The position numbers were made by a program, and so were the translations under genes. Source: a virus. From it: a stretch of DNA of 40,556 bases. Below are positions 6,369-38,607 of the stretch, in pieces (within the stretch, counting starts at the first letter, position 1; the number at the start of each line of letters is the position of its first letter). The notes under the pieces are model-generated. The model did not search any database. It had not been told where the DNA came from and worked only from the letters and a program-made list of their open reading frames with translations. The stretch covers positions 1 through 40,556 of IMG/VR virus record IMGVR_UViG_3300018080_000307. The stretch is one strand, 5' to 3'.

Positions 6369-6553
6369 TAGAACTCCACCGTGTCATTCCAGTCTATCGG
6401 CTCTCCTGCTTCCGGCTGCTCGTACTCCAGTTCCCTGTATTCCCTCGGAACCCGTACCCGCTGGTAGTAGCGGATGTTGCCGTACCTATCGTATACCGGA
6501 CGTTCCTCCCAGTCCCATGAAGTAACTTCGATGGGTGTGCCTGTTCTAATCAT
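6368..6553 (-). CDS. Hypothetical Tyr/Arg-rich protein (61 aa)
   Basis: No family recognised. The ATG at 6551-6553 is preferred over an upstream start at 6700, which would lie 150 bp inside the helicase gene. With this start the gene overlaps the helicase stop by eight bases. The product contains WDWEERPVYDRYGNIRYYQR and an acidic C terminus, and has no membrane segment. Confidence 0.55.
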   Translation of the reverse strand: MIRTGTPIEVTSWDWEERPVYDRYGNIRYYQRVRVPREYRELEYEQPEAGEPIDWNDTVEF

Positions 6554-7763
6554 TCTGTACCACCGCAAACCTTGGACCGTCCTCAATGGCAAACCATAGT
6601 TTCTTTGCCCAGTGTCGGCCCTCTCTATTTTTCCTGGTATACAGCTGCGCCTCACCACTTTGCTGGTTCGGGTTATCGCGTTCGGTGTAATAGGCGTCAC
6701 GGTAAAGAAAAACCACGGTATCTAAGTTCTCCTCAATCTGCCCCGAATCCCGTAAGTCCATAAGTTCAGGGTGTTTATCGCTACGCCTTTCAACTAGCCG
6801 ATTAAGTTGTATGCACATAGCCGAACAACAATTCAACTCTTTAGCGATGTCCCTTAAATTCCGCGTGATTACTCCTAGCCTTTGAACTTCGCTGTCCAAC
6901 TTGTCCCGTAATAATCTGATGTGATCGACAATCAGCAAATCCAACCCGCCATGTTTGTCAGCAATCCGGCGACACTGGCTTGCCAGTTCCAGGCTTGTCA
7001 TTGGCTGTTCAAAAACGTACAAATTTTCTAACTCCTCAACCGTCGTAAACGCCACATCAAACCGCTTATCATCGGGCTCTGCATACCGTAAGGATGCTCC
7101 GGCGTAGGCTGATACCATTCTTCCAATCCACCTATCTGCGGCCATTTCGCCACTCCAGACGACGACAACACCTTCTCGGGCAACATGGGAACTTATTTGC
7201 GCCATCAATTGTGACTTACCCATACTCGGCCTCGCCGCTAAACCAAAACCTTCTTTTCGCCGGAGCATCCCTACGGCATCCAGGTTACTGAACCCGCACT
7301 CGATGATTTCATTTTGCTGGTTTCCCAGGTTCTCCTTTAGCGTTTGTACTAAATCTGCCACGACTAAACCGTTTTTACTTAATGACGGTAGTCTGACAGA
7401 TGCTATGGCTTTTTCTACTCCTGCCGCATCCCCGTTGATGGCCTTGCTAGCCATGTCCTTGGCAAGCAGTAAACCTTTGCGGCAGATGTAAGCCTCTTCA
7501 ACACGGTGTACTAACTCCTCGAATAAGTGCGATAAATAAACCGCCGTGCCATTGAAAAACCATTCCATCACCCATTCGTCACCTTCTAACCATTCTCTGC
7601 CTTCTTCCTGGTATTTCAACATTTGTTGAAACGCCTCCCTGCATTGAACATCCAGGAAGTAATCAGGTGTCAGGTGCTGTGCGTACCGCCAGTATTCCGG
7701 GGACACCGCCAGGGTTGCGATGATAGCGGTTTCGGCATCAAGGTTTTGGGGTAGCTTTTCCAT
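6546..7763 (-). CDS. dnaB: Replicative DNA helicase, DnaB family
   Basis: Hexameric 5'-3' helicase that unwinds the phage replication fork. The N-terminal domain begins with the typical NLDAETAIIATLAVSPEYW. The RecA-like domain has Walker A in AARPSMGKSQ (about residue 180), Walker B in LLIVDHIRLL and later DnaB motifs around QLNRLVERRSDKHPELMDLR, DSGQIEENLDTVVFLYRD and YTRKNREGR. Its 405 residues are slightly short for bacterial DnaB (about 450-470) but normal for phage versions. The ATG at 7761-7763 follows GAGGAGG; a GTG at 7778 would overlap that Shine-Dalgarno. It starts inside the zinc-ribbon gene (26-bp overlap). No separate primase domain is seen. Confidence 0.92.
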   Translation of the reverse strand: MEKLPQNLDAETAIIATLAVSPEYWRYAQHLTPDYFLDVQCREAFQQMLKYQEEGREWLEGDEWVMEWFFNGTAVYLSHLFEELVHRVEEAYICRKGLLLAKDMASKAINGDAAGVEKAIASVRLPSLSKNGLVVADLVQTLKENLGNQQNEIIECGFSNLDAVGMLRRKEGFGLAARPSMGKSQLMAQISSHVAREGVVVVWSGEMAADRWIGRMVSAYAGASLRYAEPDDKRFDVAFTTVEELENLYVFEQPMTSLELASQCRRIADKHGGLDLLIVDHIRLLRDKLDSEVQRLGVITRNLRDIAKELNCCSAMCIQLNRLVERRSDKHPELMDLRDSGQIEENLDTVVFLYRDAYYTERDNPNQQSGEAQLYTRKNREGRHWAKKLWFAIEDGPRFAVVQND

Positions 7764-20624: not shown

Positions 20625-21281
20625 TTACTTGGTAAATTTTTCCAGGTAGTAAAGGAATTTGAATTCATCAAAGGTTCTTTTTGTTTCGCTTTCCTCTTCT
20701 TGCACTACATTCACCTTTAGCTCCTCGCTCTCTATGAATGTCTCTGGCATTTCAAGTTCAGCTTCCACGTAAATTGATTTCAGGGCGACGGTAGCCATGT
20801 CATTGGCCGGTAGTCGACCCTGCCCTTGATCGATTAATGTAAGTTCTCCAATAGGCCAGGTGAGTATTTCCCTGTCAGGAGAACGTCGTACCAAATAGTT
20901 AATACTTCCTGTACTTGCGCGGGCGAGGCCACCAATGGCAGCTTTCCATACTCGCTCGGCAAGTTTCTTTGTCTTGTCTAAAATCACTTCAAACCACAAG
21001 CCCTTTTCGTCCTTCTTGGTAACCTTTGCCCTCCCGATAATCTGGGGGCGATCATCCGGCCCACCATCGGGGCGATCGCCGTGGTAGTAAAGGACTGGGC
21101 GTTCGTCGCCTTCTTTCACCATGAAATCGGTCTTGGGGCTGAAATAGTCACCCTGTCGGTCTTTGTTTTCGGGGGAACCGAATGGCGCCCCCAGGACATC
21201 AAGGATCCATTCGTCGTCGGATTTCCTGGCTTCGAGGTCGTACCATTCACCGCGTATAATTTTCGTTTTATCTTTTGGCAT
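20625..21281 (-). CDS. Prohead protease (HK97 family)
   Basis: 218 residues upstream of the capsid gene, the standard place. It has the expected N-terminal LDVLGAPFGSPENKDRQGD and FSPKTDFMV, then RPVLYYHGDRP in the position of the catalytic-His segment, and GGLARASTGSINYLVRRSP, in which STGS would carry the catalytic Ser, then WPIGELTLIDQGQG. It is expected to cut the capsid N terminus during maturation. GGAGG is eight bases before the ATG. The C-terminal 50 residues are acidic and may be self-removed. Confidence 0.82.
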   Translation of the reverse strand: MPKDKTKIIRGEWYDLEARKSDDEWILDVLGAPFGSPENKDRQGDYFSPKTDFMVKEGDERPVLYYHGDRPDGGPDDRPQIIGRAKVTKKDEKGLWFEVILDKTKKLAERVWKAAIGGLARASTGSINYLVRRSPDREILTWPIGELTLIDQGQGRLPANDMATVALKSIYVEAELEMPETFIESEELKVNVVQEEESETKRTFDEFKFLYYLEKFTK

Positions 21282-28049: not shown

Positions 28050-28077
28050 TTGACAAACTGTAAAACGATAATATAAT
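28050..28077 (+). promoter_or_regulatory. Plus-strand promoter between the terminase genes
   Basis: TTGACA (28050-28055), 16-bp spacer, TATAAT (28072-28077), on the plus strand, against the direction of the surrounding late genes. The spacer has ACGATA next to the -10, as in the other operator sites. It drives the 37-codon membrane peptide at 28097. Confidence 0.75.
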
Positions 28078-28210: not shown

Positions 28211-28643
28211 GTTTCACGTAACCCCGTTCATCAGCCCAGATCTCAAACTGCCTTTCCAGGATATCCGTTTCCCATTGGGAAGGCTCCACGTTAATCGTCA
28301 CGTCACCTTTCCCCAGCATACTATGACGCCTGTCTAAAGCTCTATCCAATGCATTGATCGCCGTAGTAAGCGCCTTATCTGCTTCAATCCCCTTATGCGA
28401 ATTCAACCTGTCAATGACTTCCTGCAACATCTCCAAAACAAACTGGTCCATGTCATCAGGCTTCTTAACCGGAGCCCGTTTGCGCTTCGCCTGCTGCGTA
28501 GCCCTGCCCAGCATCCTGTCTTTTGCCCGCTGGGCTTCTAACGCCGGATCATGCATGTAACAGTAACGACTATCAGGGTCGTACTTGTGACCAGCGTTGT
28601 TAGGACACGGTTTTCCGGATTTCGTAGTCGCTATGCATTTCAT
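28188..28643 (-). CDS. Terminase small subunit-like protein with N-terminal zinc finger
   Basis: 151 residues from the ATG at 28641-28643. A zinc-finger-like array is at the start: KCIATTKSGKPC, then CYMHDP, giving Cys/Cys/Cys/His. The middle is a helix-rich basic region (RMLGRATQQAKRKRAPVKKP) and a helical region (DQFVLEMLQEVIDRLN). Its place directly upstream of the large terminase is the main argument; such zinc-finger proteins are found in this position in many phages. The DNA-recognition subunit binds near the packaging site. Starts upstream of 28643 lie in GC-rich DNA with no codon bias. No strong Shine-Dalgarno is visible. Confidence 0.6.
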   Translation of the reverse strand: MKCIATTKSGKPCPNNAGHKYDPDSRYCYMHDPALEAQRAKDRMLGRATQQAKRKRAPVKKPDDMDQFVLEMLQEVIDRLNSHKGIEADKALTTAINALDRALDRRHSMLGKGDVTINVEPSQWETDILERQFEIWADERGYVKPSDLDVS

Positions 28644-28946
28644 AAAGGGGGATAACCTTGTGTAAGGGGGTCCTGTGCTACCAGGGCTCCTATGCCTACC
28701 CATGGGGGCTAGGGGGGTCTGGTGCCTGATTTCGGGTGGAGGGAGTAACTCGCAACCCATAGCCGGCGCCACAAAGAATTCTTTTCCTGTACACCTGTTG
28801 TCCAGGTTTCCGGGGTGCTGGTTGCCTAGTTACCCCTAGTGGTTGAGATAATTGTTGTTATCATAACCATGGTTGTCCAGGTATTGTCACTGTATACGGT
28901 ATACGGTATCGGGGGGCTTGGTAAGCAGTCCTCCCGCGGCCTTCGG
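28644..28946. other. GC-rich gap upstream of terminase small subunit; candidate packaging-site region
   Basis: About 300 bp with no convincing gene. It holds G- and C-runs (28646-28720), a tandem run TATACGG-TATACGG-TATCGG (28892..28910), and a GC-rich hairpin-like GCCGAAGGC (28937-28945 region). A cos or pac site close to terS would be expected here, but no signature is identifiable by eye. Short minus-strand frames in it are without codon support. Confidence 0.4.
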
Positions 28947-29144
28947 CTACCAGGAGCGCCAGTTGCACTCGCTCTCTGCTGCCAGCAGGCCCCGGTGGTG
29001 GGTATCCTGCCAGCGCCTACGTGCCTTGGATAGCCTGCGTTTCCAGTATCTACCGCCACTAGGCCACCGGGTATACCATCTGGCATACGGTGATATACGC
29101 TTACCGTGTTCTTTCCATGTGATACGGTGATTAGTATTGTGCAT
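28947..29144 (-). CDS. Small basic protein (65 aa) upstream of terminase
   Basis: A plausible gene: basic and Trp/Arg-rich, RISPYARWYTRWPSGGRYWK, RRLSKARRRWQDTHHRG and an ending ESECNWRSW. Proteins of this composition with a Cys-Asn-Trp tail are common just before terminase in tailed phages. There is no clear Shine-Dalgarno. An alternative frame (28826..29086) overlaps it but lacks such features. Confidence 0.5.
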   Translation of the reverse strand: MHNTNHRITWKEHGKRISPYARWYTRWPSGGRYWKRRLSKARRRWQDTHHRGLLAAESECNWRSW

Positions 29145-29187
29145 ATAAGTGACTATTATTGTGAGCGCAACTCTAGCGAAGATTGTC

Positions 29188-29221
29188 TGTTATAATTTAT
29201 TATGATTGTTATAATTTATTA
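29188..29221. repeat. Tandem 15-bp AT-rich repeat
   Basis: TGTTATAATTTATTA occurs at 29188..29202 and 29207..29221, 19 bp apart, spanning the stop codon of the metalloprotease gene. It may be a transcription or replication signal or a slippage product. Confidence 0.6.
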
Positions 29222-30310
29222 CGGTACCTGTGGCCCATAAGGTAACGCACAGGTAATCTCTCTCACCCACCAGGGAAACATGCTTGCTGTGTCGTCAAAC
29301 AGCATACCGATTATCTCGAAGATTACATCACCTTTTGATGTAACCTCTACGAACTTGGCCTGCCCTGTATCCATTGGTTGTCCGCAGATACCCGGTATTA
29401 CGTGTACTTCCCAGGGATACTTTTCGTAGTTGTATATAATGTCCCAAAGGTAATGCTCTGCTTCTTCATCTTCGAACCAGTGGCGCAAACTTTTATCTGC
29501 TGCGGCTTCCTGGTCAGCATCTCTCCATAATAGGTTAGCTAATGGCTGGTATAAATCATCCAGTCCTATCATGCGCAGTCTTACCCATAAGGAACCGCGT
29601 GCCCAGGATTCTACTTCGTACCAGAACGCTTTACAGGCAACGTCATCACCATAATTACACATAGCAGCTAATACTTCCAATGTAGCGCTTTGTGTTTTGG
29701 GCTCGATAATATTCGGTCTATCGTTAGAAAATCCGCCTCGTTGCGTATGTACTAATTCGTGAATGATGGTGGAATAAATTTGTCTGAGATCCGCATTAGG
29801 TTTCAATAACATGCGCTCATTCAGGTTTACCACGCTGTACCATGTAGCAGCACTTCCTAGAAGGTGAAATGAATTGTCACCCGTGAGAGGGAAAAACGCG
29901 ATCTGGATAGGATAGACAGATTGATTAGGTGGTGCAATCCCTTCGTATTCGTAAAACGGCACCACGTATCTGACAAACTCTGCTAGCCATTCCGAATTTG
30001 TGCGGATCCCCCAAGAACAATAAGGGCAAATTAAATTACCTTTTACATAATCAATACGATAAGGTGCTCTACCAAATCCACCATCATATTCTTTGATAAG
30101 CTCGAAAGGAATAGGATCTCCGGCCCTATTGTGGGCCATGGATGCGATGTACAGATCTCGAAAAACAAGGCTAATGGGAGAACGATCTAGCTTTCCGATA
30201 AATGTCTCATGTTCTATGTAACGCGAAATATCTTTATTGTACGCCAACCCTAAAGAACCAACCGCAATCAGCGCCAAACCAATAACAATACTAAATACCT
30301 TTCTCCTCAT
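29219..30310 (-). CDS. Membrane-anchored or secreted zinc metalloprotease (gluzincin-like)
   Basis: 363 residues. An N-terminal signal-anchor is clear (RRKVFSIVIGLALIAVGSLG). The zinc motif HELVH is at residues 184-188, and a third ligand Glu is likely at 212 in ATLEVLAAM, which fits the gluzincin arrangement. CPYC at 95-98 may be a structural disulfide or metal site. The start overlaps the stop of the trypsin-like protease as TAATG, so the two are made together. Family and topology suggest it acts outside the cytoplasmic membrane, on host surface or virion proteins. Target and regulation are unknown. Such enzymes are rare in phages. Confidence 0.72.
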   Translation of the reverse strand: MRRKVFSIVIGLALIAVGSLGLAYNKDISRYIEHETFIGKLDRSPISLVFRDLYIASMAHNRAGDPIPFELIKEYDGGFGRAPYRIDYVKGNLICPYCSWGIRTNSEWLAEFVRYVVPFYEYEGIAPPNQSVYPIQIAFFPLTGDNSFHLLGSAATWYSVVNLNERMLLKPNADLRQIYSTIIHELVHTQRGGFSNDRPNIIEPKTQSATLEVLAAMCNYGDDVACKAFWYEVESWARGSLWVRLRMIGLDDLYQPLANLLWRDADQEAAADKSLRHWFEDEEAEHYLWDIIYNYEKYPWEVHVIPGICGQPMDTGQAKFVEVTSKGDVIFEIIGMLFDDTASMFPWWVREITCALPYGPQVP

Positions 30311-31101
30311 TAGTTTTCTCCTGTTTCTGCCTGTCGCTTCTCCTCCCTTTCCCTTATCTCCTTACGAAGTTCGAACTCACTCTCTTCGGTAAAGTTGTCG
30401 TCATAGATGAATCGGAATTTCTGGCCTTCAAGAAAGTTATAGATCCGTGTAATGGGAATGGCGTAACTAAGATGTGTGATAGCGTCCGCAGAGAGCCCCA
30501 TGTTGGCAACCGCAATCCTAGCGGGCACACCCAGTAATTCAAAGGTATCTTTCAAAAACATCGCTCCACCAGAGTTACCAAAAATCGAAGGTGCAGTATT
30601 CAGCCAATATTCCCTACGATCAATTTCCTGGCCGAATTGCGATAAAATGCCCTCTGTCTGCACAGGAGCCGCTCCCAGGCCCGCTCCCACGGTGATTACG
30701 CCCATTCCGATGCGTAAATCGCTCTCCCTTTCCCTCGGATAGAGCTTGGCTACAGAAGCCGCAGGCGTAGCAGATCTCAATTTCAATAATGCGAGATCCT
30801 CTTCGGGGTCATATGCTAGGATGTCCGACTGGATTGTCAGACCACCGATTGCCCGGCTTTCGTACTTGTAATCAAAAAGATGTACGTCCACGATCTCGAA
30901 AACGTCCATTTTGCGCTCTTTCTTTAGCAAGGTGGACCATTTCTTTTCAATCTTGATACAGCTACCCACGACGTGATGATTTGTGAGAATGTAAGTCCCA
31001 CCGTCCTTGGAATAAATAACCGTACCGCTACCCCTTGCTGTCCTTGCCTGTACTCTCACACATGGCAAGGCTATTTCTCTGTGACGCTTTTCGAGATCCA
31101 T
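30310..31101 (-). CDS. Trypsin-like serine protease (HtrA/DegP-type catalytic domain)
   Basis: 263 residues, chymotrypsin fold: TNHHVV with catalytic His at about 43, EEDLALLKL with Asp at about 102 and FGNSGGAMF with nucleophile Ser at about 177. It has no PDZ domain and no signal peptide, so it probably acts in the cytoplasm unless exported by another route. The C terminus is a charged helix (EFELRKEIREREEKRQAE). It is translated with the next gene, the metalloprotease (TAATG). Roles could be processing of virion proteins, activation of the partner protease or degradation of host proteins. A separate prohead protease is present, so capsid maturation is not needed from this one. Confidence 0.85.
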   Translation of the reverse strand: MDLEKRHREIALPCVRVQARTARGSGTVIYSKDGGTYILTNHHVVGSCIKIEKKWSTLLKKERKMDVFEIVDVHLFDYKYESRAIGGLTIQSDILAYDPEEDLALLKLRSATPAASVAKLYPRERESDLRIGMGVITVGAGLGAAPVQTEGILSQFGQEIDRREYWLNTAPSIFGNSGGAMFLKDTFELLGVPARIAVANMGLSADAITHLSYAIPITRIYNFLEGQKFRFIYDDNFTEESEFELRKEIREREEKRQAETGEN

Positions 31102-31130: not shown

Positions 31131-31322
31131 TTATCCAATACCTGTGTTTGTTATCTTGCGTAGAATCAGGTTAATGGCCGCAATAGCCGCAGGTACAAAT
31201 ACCGCTAATTCCGTTGGAACGTCGCCGGTATAGCCGTACTGCGACAGGATGGGTCCAATAACCGCAACGAGAAAGGCCAACACATTGAACCAAACCGTTT
31301 TTGACTCATACCAATTCTTCAT
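31131..31322 (-). CDS. Holin-like membrane protein (63 aa)
   Basis: Typical small holin: KNWYESKTVWFNVLAFLVAV at the start, then two hydrophobic segments (about 10-28 and 38-55) with a short loop (YGYTGDVP) and a basic end (LRKITNTGIG). AAGGAGG precedes the ATG. Holins of this pattern time lysis by letting endolysin reach the wall; here the GH25 lysozyme is far away at 1.75 kb but in the same transcriptional direction. The tiny membrane gene directly upstream could be an antiholin. Confidence 0.75.
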   Translation of the reverse strand: MKNWYESKTVWFNVLAFLVAVIGPILSQYGYTGDVPTELAVFVPAAIAAINLILRKITNTGIG

Positions 31323-35875: not shown

Positions 35876-36639
35876 TCCAACTCCTCAGGTTTGATACAAT
35901 CCAACGGCGTGTTATTGACATCATTCACGTTTATCAGTTGCCTGCCAGCATACTCATAAGCCTCTTTCGCCAGCCCAAGCACGTACCTGGAACCCTGTTC
36001 CGTTACCCGCCGACCGTCCAAGGGTTCGCAACAGAACCGCGGATCGTTGGGATAAAAGTGCATCTTTTCAGGATCTCTGGCGTAATCGTTATCGCAGCCC
36101 ACGACGTAAACAGTATCAAATCCTAAATAGAACATCAATTGGCAGGCAACATAGGTATTCGTGAACCCGATACCAATGCGATCCAGTGGATCAAAGCTAA
36201 ACAACCTCGAATTTACTGCCTTGGCTTTTTTCTTTAGGCTGATGGTGTGGAAAAAGTAGCATTTATCATAATTCATGTAAGGACCCAGAAGCCTATTAAT
36301 AAACATTACCTCCAAATGTGGGAGCATTGGTTTGATGTAAGATAGTTTTTCATCGCTGTTTAGCTGGTCCAGCCCCAAGATACAGTAAAACGTAGGGCAG
36401 AACTTCAACGGTGTATCTGGATACCGAGCAACCTCTTCGTCCGTCATCCCGTAAAGGTAAATGTTATTCATCCCCATAGATGGGTACGCTGTCAAGAAGT
36501 CGAGCGGGATGTCGTTCAAACTGGGACCGTTCGCTATAATGATGCCAGTTTCCCCGGCGTACCTGTCCCGTAAATCAGGTTTACCGACATTGAAGTCTAT
36601 CAGGGCGTTTTTCAATAGTGCGTTAGTCTCGTAGTGCAT
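35863..36639 (-). CDS. Maf/DUF115- or GT42-like glycosyltransferase (paralogue 1)
   Basis: 258 residues from the ATG at 36637-36639, which shares one base with the NeuB-like stop (TAATG); an earlier TTG is less likely. GIIIANGPSLNDIPLDFLTA is the NGPSL loop, GIGFTNTYVACQLMFYLGFD with VYVVGCDNDYARD the second motif. These patterns match GT42 sialyltransferases and the Maf flagellar glycosyltransferases, which use CMP-nonulosonic acids. The tight coupling to the NeuB-like gene supports this. No membrane helix, so a cytoplasmic enzyme. Confidence 0.68.
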   Translation of the reverse strand: MHYETNALLKNALIDFNVGKPDLRDRYAGETGIIIANGPSLNDIPLDFLTAYPSMGMNNIYLYGMTDEEVARYPDTPLKFCPTFYCILGLDQLNSDEKLSYIKPMLPHLEVMFINRLLGPYMNYDKCYFFHTISLKKKAKAVNSRLFSFDPLDRIGIGFTNTYVACQLMFYLGFDTVYVVGCDNDYARDPEKMHFYPNDPRFCCEPLDGRRVTEQGSRYVLGLAKEAYEYAGRQLINVNDVNNTPLDCIKPEELEWND

Positions 36640-37526
36640 TACCAATACCTCATCGACGCTATCTTCTGCGCCTCTTCCGCTGACACGTTCTTGACCCCGT
36701 CCCCATAAGCAGCTTCAACCGCCCGCACATCGCGTACCAGCCTACGTATTCCTTCCGGCTCCAGACTGGCAGCCTGGTCACTGCCCCACATGGTCCTATC
36801 CAATGTGATGTGCCTTTCAAGGTAGTCTGCCCCCAACACCACCGCGGCTACACTTGTCGCTATCCCCCTCTCGTGTCCTGAGTAACCGATAGGCATACCG
36901 TTCATCCAGAAAGCCAGGCTTCTAAGGAACCGCAGGTTCAAGAACTCATCATTGCAGGGATAAACCGCCACACAATGTGTCCAGATAACCGGGTAGAACT
37001 TCGGAAACCATGCTCTGATTTCCCTGAACTCCTCGGCAGTAATCCCGCCGAGACTGTAGATGATAGGCTTGCCTGTGTGTATCATCCTGCCCACCAGTTC
37101 CTTATGCGTAGCCAGTGCACTCGCTACCTTGTGGCAGGGAACACCGAAGTCCTCCAGGAAATGGAAGGATGGAATGTCCCAAGCACTCGCAAACCATGTA
37201 ATTCCCTTGTCACGGCAGTACCAGTCAAGATGCTCATAATCATCACGGTAGAATTCAAGGCGTCGCTTGTAATCCATGTAGGACATCCGCCCCCAGGGTG
37301 TATCCTTCTTGCGCTCCCGCATCCATTCGGGGATGCAGGTATCCAGGTGCCGCTTCTGGAACTTCACCGCGTCACATCCAACATCTACCGCAACGTCAAT
37401 CAGCTTTTCGGCGGTTTCGATATCCCCGTTAGCATTAATACCTATCTCCGCTGTTATGTAACAAGGATAACCGGTACCGATTTCCTTACCTGCTATCTCT
37501 ACCACTACCCCTCCAATGCCATCCAT
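36639..37526 (-). CDS. neuB: NeuB-family nonulosonic acid (sialic acid-like) synthase, no SAF domain
   Basis: Condenses phosphoenolpyruvate with an aldose to form a 2-keto-3-deoxy acid sugar, by family. The TIM-barrel motifs are present: CYITAEIGINANGDIETAEK, CDAVKFQKRHLDT, VPCHKVASALATHKELV, KPIIYSLGG, THCVAVYPCNDEFLNL, MPIGYSGHERG and LERHITLDRTMWGSDQAASL. It has 295 residues and stops after SMRYW, so the C-terminal antifreeze-like SAF domain (about 60 residues in NeuB of 340-350) is missing. The product could be neuraminic, legionaminic, pseudaminic or KDN-like acid. It overlaps the SIS gene by 22 bp; the start could also be the GTG six codons later. Confidence 0.85.
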   Translation of the reverse strand: MDGIGGVVVEIAGKEIGTGYPCYITAEIGINANGDIETAEKLIDVAVDVGCDAVKFQKRHLDTCIPEWMRERKKDTPWGRMSYMDYKRRLEFYRDDYEHLDWYCRDKGITWFASAWDIPSFHFLEDFGVPCHKVASALATHKELVGRMIHTGKPIIYSLGGITAEEFREIRAWFPKFYPVIWTHCVAVYPCNDEFLNLRFLRSLAFWMNGMPIGYSGHERGIATSVAAVVLGADYLERHITLDRTMWGSDQAASLEPEGIRRLVRDVRAVEAAYGDGVKNVSAEEAQKIASMRYW

Positions 37527-37960
37527 AAAGTGTGTAACCAGATAAGTGTTAGTTCCTGAACGGCTTGTGTGTTCGCTTCTATCTTGTGCTGAATTTCACA
37601 ATCTTTCAAATCCTTACCACCAGTAAACCCGATTGTCAGCATGTCCCTATTCTTTGCTGCCTTCAATGCCTCTTTGATGTTCTTGGATTCGCAACTGGTA
37701 GAAAGGACTATCAGCATGTCACCGGCTTTTCCCAGGGTCTGAATTTGGGCAGAGTAAACCTCATCATATGCGTAATCGTTAGCGATCGCCGTAATCGTTG
37801 CAAGGTTATTCAGGCTCACGCATCGGAAACCGCTGCATACCAGCTCACCGGCGAAGTGGTCCGCTTGGGCTGCCGAGCCTCCGTTACCGCAAATGTAAAT
37901 CGTAGCCCCGTTGTCTAAACGAGCCCTGATTTCGTCAACCAGGGAAGCAAAATCCTGCAT
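37505..37960 (-). CDS. SIS-domain sugar isomerase (GmhA-like)
   Basis: 151 residues, one SIS fold. TIYICGNGGSAAQADHFAGE at about 19-38 is the phosphosugar-binding loop of the GmhA (sedoheptulose-7-phosphate isomerase) branch. Later parts MLIVLSTSCESKNIKEALKA and TIGFTGG fit, and LIWLHTLWMALEG ends it. It is short for GmhA (about 190), with the N-terminal helices missing. It probably converts a ketose phosphate to the aldose that the NeuB-like enzyme uses. It overlaps the NeuA-like gene by 46 bp. Confidence 0.8.
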   Translation of the reverse strand: MQDFASLVDEIRARLDNGATIYICGNGGSAAQADHFAGELVCSGFRCVSLNNLATITAIANDYAYDEVYSAQIQTLGKAGDMLIVLSTSCESKNIKEALKAAKNRDMLTIGFTGGKDLKDCEIQHKIEANTQAVQELTLIWLHTLWMALEG

Positions 37961-38607
37961 AATTCCAAATCCTCCATCGTATCTATTTCAATACCGCACC
38001 AATTCGGTTGCCCGAACTTGCCAACTTTGTCTAATAACCGGTTATGGAAATTCTTGTATACAAATGTTTTGGTAATCCAGAAACTCCCGTTCTCAATCAG
38101 CACAGAACTCTTGTCCTGTCGCATTGGGCGCACTCGCATATCATCACCAATGCGAATAAGCTGGCTCAAAGCGTTCTTCCGCCATAAGAATTGTTTAATT
38201 TCGCAAGCGCTGAACAAACTATTGAACGCCTGCTCCTTGAATAGTTTTATGGCATTGTCCAAATCGTTAGGACGCCTGAAAGGTGACGTGCACTGTAGCA
38301 ACGCTACAATGTCAAAGGATTTCCCCTGTGACTCCAAGACATATAAGGCATGTTCTATTGCCTCCTCAGCTCTCGAATGCGGTTCACACAACCAGCGGGG
38401 CCTAAAGATGACCTCGGCACCCGCTTCCTTGGAAACGTCCCCGATTTCTGCATCCTCGGTTGATACCACTACTTTGTCGATTAGCTCAGAATTCAAGGCA
38501 TCCTCGATGGTGTGAACGATAAGCGGCTTGTCACCCAGGATTGCCAGGTTCTTGCGGGGCAATTCGTCAGACATTCCTTTTGCCGGAATAATGGCTATTG
38601 TGCTCAT
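37915..38607 (-). CDS. neuA: NeuA-like CMP-sugar cytidylyltransferase
   Basis: 230 residues. Activates an acid sugar with CTP to CMP-sugar, by family. The N-terminal nucleotide-binding motif is IAIIPAKGMSDELPRKNLAI (usually IPARxGSKxxxxKN), then VVVSTEDAEIGDVSKEAGAE, LLQCTSPFRRPNDLDNAI (normally LLQPTSPLR) and VLIENGSFWIT. GIEIDTMEDL gives the metal-binding Asp. The first motif is divergent (SDEL for SKGI). The start overlaps the stop of the preceding gene as ATGA. With the SIS and NeuB-like genes it makes a three-step pathway. Confidence 0.85.
   Translation of the reverse strand: MSTIAIIPAKGMSDELPRKNLAILGDKPLIVHTIEDALNSELIDKVVVSTEDAEIGDVSKEAGAEVIFRPRWLCEPHSRAEEAIEHALYVLESQGKSFDIVALLQCTSPFRRPNDLDNAIKLFKEQAFNSLFSACEIKQFLWRKNALSQLIRIGDDMRVRPMRQDKSSVLIENGSFWITKTFVYKNFHNRLLDKVGKFGQPNWCGIEIDTMEDLELCRILLPWLTKSGLV

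Follow-up and report, generated by a model that had tools for sequence, protein, structure and literature searches.

The window analyzed here, a 40,556-nucleotide stretch of viral DNA, contains two adjacent genes (P1 and P2) that had been predicted to encode a trypsin-like protease coupled to a membrane-anchored HExxH protease. The question raised by this locus is whether the two proteins form one conserved two-protease cassette, acting as a cascade, or are separate genes that work independently. Both open reading frames were confirmed on the minus strand, P2 (363 amino acids) at 29219–30310 and P1 (263 amino acids) at 30310–31101, joined by the expected TAATG overlap of the P1 stop codon and the P2 start codon (30308–30312). 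Directly upstream of P1, after a gap of 29 bases, lies a gene for a 63-amino-acid small membrane protein (31131–31322, minus strand). This gene had been called a holin: a small transmembrane gene is indeed present, but the holin label is weak (PHROG holin, E = 0.013), and the MKNWYESKT family of small transmembrane proteins to which it belongs recurs. Good Shine–Dalgarno-like sequences precede the 63-amino-acid gene, P1 and P2. As originally predicted, the phage has a separate candidate prohead protease (20625–21281, minus strand; phrog_80, E = 1.5e-4). Relatives of its terminase were recovered from the same virus only, and host inference via portal and terminase gave distant matches only, to phages with unrelated hosts.

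P1 matched the Pfam family Trypsin_2 (PF13365; E = 4.5e-15) with 57.1 bits against a curated cut-off of 27.6. The complete triad proposed for it, His43, Asp102 and Ser177 (codons at 30973–30975, 30796–30798 and 30571–30573), was invariant in 68/68 aligned family members, across which the GNSGG serine motif was near-invariant. An AlphaFold (AF2) model based on a 50-row alignment had a mean pLDDT of 93.2 and a pTM of 0.91, and structure comparison showed that the closest solved folds were DegP, DegQ and DegS (TM about 0.78–0.80 of target length for DegS delta-PDZ chains and protease domain), supporting the catalytic geometry at fold level. Sequence searches of PDB and NCBIfam also led to HtrA/Deg proteases, including a match to the NCBIfam DegP/HtrA profile (E = 7.7e-16). 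With the HtrA/Deg proteases (DegS, DegP and DegQ; MEROPS S1C), P1 shares the protease-domain fold, the H/D/S order and the GNSGG motif, whereas identity is only about 20–24%, no PDZ domain was detected in its 263 amino acids using Pfam, and no signal peptide was found in the window copy. It likewise differs from the canonical HtrA (Do) family in missing the C-terminal PDZ and in scoring 58 bits against the curated cut-off of 416 for NCBIfam degP_htrA_DO. Since Deg folds are the closest and both PDZ domain and signal peptide are absent, we conclude from sequence and model that P1 is a stand-alone HtrA-type protease domain rather than a trypsin sensu stricto; "trypsin-like" describes its fold correctly, with HtrA as the closest family. 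P1 is predicted to be located in the cytoplasm and to be proteolytically active. Viral HtrA/trypsin-like proteins, such as the HtrA of Rhizobium phage AF3 and the periplasmic serine protease of Podoviridae sp. ct9P15, have the protease fold in common with P1, at 22–24% identity.

P2 contains HELVH at residues 184–188 (29747–29761), which matches PROSITE PS00142 from residue 181 onward; no other HExxH occurs in any open frame of 60 amino acids or more in the window. The original prediction also included a signal anchor and a downstream Glu212. All of these elements were present. For the third zinc ligand, which in gluzincins is a downstream Glu on a second helix, E203 (29702–29704) and E212 (29675–29677) are equal candidates; both are conserved in the two available sequences, P2 and its homolog in the IMG/VR locus L007. 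The N-terminal hydrophobic segment (residues 5–23; 30242–30298) has a hydropathy of 2.46 (2.79 in L007) and is preceded by Arg and Lys, with the N-terminus predicted inside. L007 has GSLWLIYN in place of the candidate signal-peptidase site GLA-Y, so the anchor is more likely uncleaved with the body outside the membrane, as had been proposed. The six cysteines of P2 (95, 98, 218, 226, 309 and 354) would suit an extracytoplasmic domain.

No family or fold was recognized for P2: searches of Pfam, PHROG, NCBIfam and PDB gave zero matches, so that the suggested comparison with known peptidase families returned nothing, and AlphaFold on two sequences did not predict a fold (pLDDT 33). Searches of viral contigs (with full-protein, alignment and catalytic-core queries), genome contigs, and phage and plasmid records by tblastn recovered only the same virus and L007. 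This sole independent relative is 91% identical in protein and 79% in nucleotide sequence. Differences between the two fall 45/16/166 over the three codon positions (dN 0.075, dS 2.1), giving a dN/dS of about 0.04 overall and 0.012 in residues 141–260, and P2 is therefore a real gene under strong purifying selection relative to L007. Only 2 of the 120 residues in 141–260 have changed, compared with 14 of the first 41, indicating that selection acts to preserve the region with the motif. This constraint bears directly on the view that HELVH is fortuitous and that P2, instead of being a protease, has a structural or regulatory role at the membrane to which it is anchored. Such a view would explain why family, PDB and model support is lacking, and any HExxH arises in 1% of shuffles of P2; however, PS00142 arises in just 0.06%, and the near-identity of residues 141–260 speaks against a chance motif, so that we regard a non-protease P2 as a real but unlikely alternative. 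A metzincin assignment was rejected, as HELVHTQRGGF has neither the Gly nor the third His of HExxHxxGxxH. P2 shares HExxH and patchy occurrence in phages with the phage zincins (SprT-like, ArdC-like and DUF6647; PMC7824862), but it differs from them in its signal anchor, and no relationship to any of them could be detected by sequence. We thus describe P2 as a putative orphan zincin-like protein, representing a family under strong selection, for which the term metalloprotease is motif-based.

The distribution of P1 is quite different in scale. Relatives were confirmed by pattern scan in at least 196 IMG/VR loci, the best 80 of the 196 being retained. Used as a tblastn query (E 1e-5), the diverged member L003 had no match among 50,697 phage records, while window P1 gave five weak HtrA-like hits in phage records. 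In genomes, relatives were confined to 7 bins among 84,980, scattered over unrelated phyla. Literature searches found no account of the family. We conclude that P1 belongs to a new phage family of HtrA-type proteases, itself a known kind of enzyme; the family is common in uncultivated phages, and for a diverged member as query it has no match in deposited phage records.

Clear signal peptides were found in about 11/67 P1 relatives, spread over several separate branches of the tree, where long branches make the exact number of changes unsure. As these members occur in several separate places, the enzyme apparently serves both inside and outside the membrane. The neighbors of P1 relatives vary by phage and include terminase, ribonucleotide reductase, DnaB, lysozyme, amidase, endolysin and methylase, as well as M15 and NlpC/P60 enzymes, ClpP, Hsp20 and a weak Cpn10 match. 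This variety fits a stand-alone accessory gene. Small transmembrane (holin-like) neighbors were not significantly enriched (11/151 near vs 17/378 far; p = 0.14). A family with and without signal peptides, lying beside proteostasis, lysis or packaging genes, provides a phage-owned HtrA-type protease that can be put to the test.

These data also bear on the idea that the two proteins are weapons against host defense or superinfection, P1 degrading cytoplasmic defense proteins and P2 shaving surface receptors. For other patchy phage proteases (ClpP, SprT-like and ArdC-like), targeting of host proteins has been proposed (PMC7824862); the P1 family is patchy too, and P2 is predicted to face outward. 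However, late expression is what the position in the late holin–terminase region would suggest, neither a receptor nor a defense partner was identified, and with both exported and cytoplasmic members in the P1 family no single cytoplasmic target fits. We consider this explanation quite unlikely.

Several P1 relatives deserve separate mention. Exported members (e.g. L071, L076, L081, L084 and L087) include several that lie directly before small transmembrane or NlpC/P60 genes, which suggests a lysis link in those lineages. A ClpP gene (L060:1994–2581) and an Hsp20 gene (L041:3037–3498) adjoin P1 relatives, and such loci are possible phage proteostasis islands. In L024, a 359-amino-acid LAGLIDADG intein (6541–7617, plus strand; Intein_splicing, E = 2.7e-17; LAGLIDADG_3, 3.1e-7) lies within the P1-family protease. 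The insertion splits GNSGG between N and S; the catalytic serine thereby becomes the +1 extein residue, and only splicing can make the protease complete. Inteins tend to occupy essential active sites, and this placement fits that tendency; it indirectly supports the view that P1 needs its catalytic serine.

Whether P1 and P2 are linked was judged from their occurrence in other phages. A P2 profile found no P2 in 50 other records with a P1 relative, a search run without a positive control on records of which many are fragments; a single-protein P2 search did recover P2 in its three known records. Among all loci fetched for comparison, P2 was confined to the window virus and L007, and the nearest P1 relatives, L024 and L017, lie in records without P2. 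Conversely, the 26-kb L007 record contains no P1 relative. When the window was compared with L007 by blastn, the match in this region covered 29215–30310 only, that is, the P2 gene plus 4 bases. The gene order in L007 is a GH25-like endolysin, small transmembrane genes and then P2, so a holin-like gene lies near P2 in both known phages. Linkage statistics for P2 are weak, with one independent relative and mostly fragmentary records. Within what can be sampled, P1 and P2 did not co-occur in related phages and each was found without the other, which is the pattern set out beforehand as speaking against a coupled cassette. P1 and P2 do not make up a conserved cassette, and since each occurs alone elsewhere the two genes are probably neighbors by chance rather than parts of one conserved machine.

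The proposed cascade fares no better: P1 lacks an export signal, and the membrane anchor of P2 leaves it facing out. From their sequences, the two proteins are thus predicted to be separated by the membrane, P1 inside and P2 outside, which makes a direct cascade before lysis unlikely. Knowing that the cassette is not conserved prevents a misleading two-step cascade from entering the annotation. As a counterpoint, the stop–start coupling and the adjacency could mean a joint function in the lineage of the window virus. One form of this would be a functional pair: with the membrane permeabilized by the holin, P1 would reach P2 and activate it (or P2 would release P1), and both would break down an envelope or S-layer for release. 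Adjacency, TAATG coupling and the holin-like gene upstream of P1 favor such a pair, as does a second case of coupling: in L027 (1844–3123), a P1 relative is TAATG-coupled to a 128-amino-acid DUF6647 HExxH protein that has no sequence relation to P2. L033, a near copy of L027, also has TAATG after its P1 relative, where the record ends. However, HExxH was found in just 2 of 314 neighboring open reading frames of P1 relatives (plus-strand), one being the L027 protein and the other probably a peptide deformylase, and chance would suffice for the L027 coupling. Given also the separate occurrence of P1 and P2 and their opposite predicted compartments, a functional pair is in our judgment very unlikely. 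A split-compartment lysis device, in which a cytoplasmic HtrA-type P1 and an outside-facing, membrane-anchored metalloprotease P2 meet only upon opening of the membrane by the holin and then digest envelope proteins, with the L027 lineage as a convergent version, appears highly improbable; if true, the host coat would be one that endolysin alone cannot dissolve.

The reading that we favor, and hold to be reasonably probable, is that P1 and P2 are separately mobile accessory genes, joined in a late holin–P1–P2 unit of an orphan tailed phage and acting independently. The three genes would form one late transcription unit. P1 would cleave or clear proteins within the infected cell late in infection; its targets may be unfolded or host proteins, the purpose being either protein quality control or the destruction of host proteins. 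After the holin opens the membrane, P1 could spill out. The anchor of P2 would fix it in the cytoplasmic membrane, leaving its domain on the outer side to bind zinc and cleave envelope or surface proteins around lysis. Neither protein would depend on the other for its action.

P1 also resembles the immune peptidases LmuA and LypA/LypC in having a trypsin-fold domain comparable to DegS, as trypsin-like peptidases of CARD-NLR systems have been aligned with DegS (PMC13236601), whereas P1 has no CARD, ATPase or endonuclease domains and no partner genes. The notion that P1 is a phage-borne effector of this Lamassu or CARD-NLR kind, directed at rival phages, is scarcely credible: a PADLOC LmuA match exists (E = 6.1e-7, 27 bits), but it is limited to the generic protease region (P1 residues 9–111) instead of spanning the full length, and no sensor, ATPase or SMC partner was seen among the window neighbors, as judged by reading rather than by profiles.

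Several further features of the window were noted. Between P2 and a TerS-like open reading frame, about 578 bases (28641–29218) contain no convincing gene and include, just past P2, a short tandem AATAAATTATAAC repeat; this region is possibly a packaging or regulatory site. Rfam gave zero matches on the window. A perfect TTGACA-16-TATAAT promoter-like site (28050–28077, plus strand) falls in the gap between the terminase large subunit and the TerS-like open reading frame; the genes lie on the other strand. Finally, genes of the NeuB family, GmhA-like (called by eye) and cytidylyltransferase types were found at 36639–38607, representing nonulosonate-type sugar genes in a phage.
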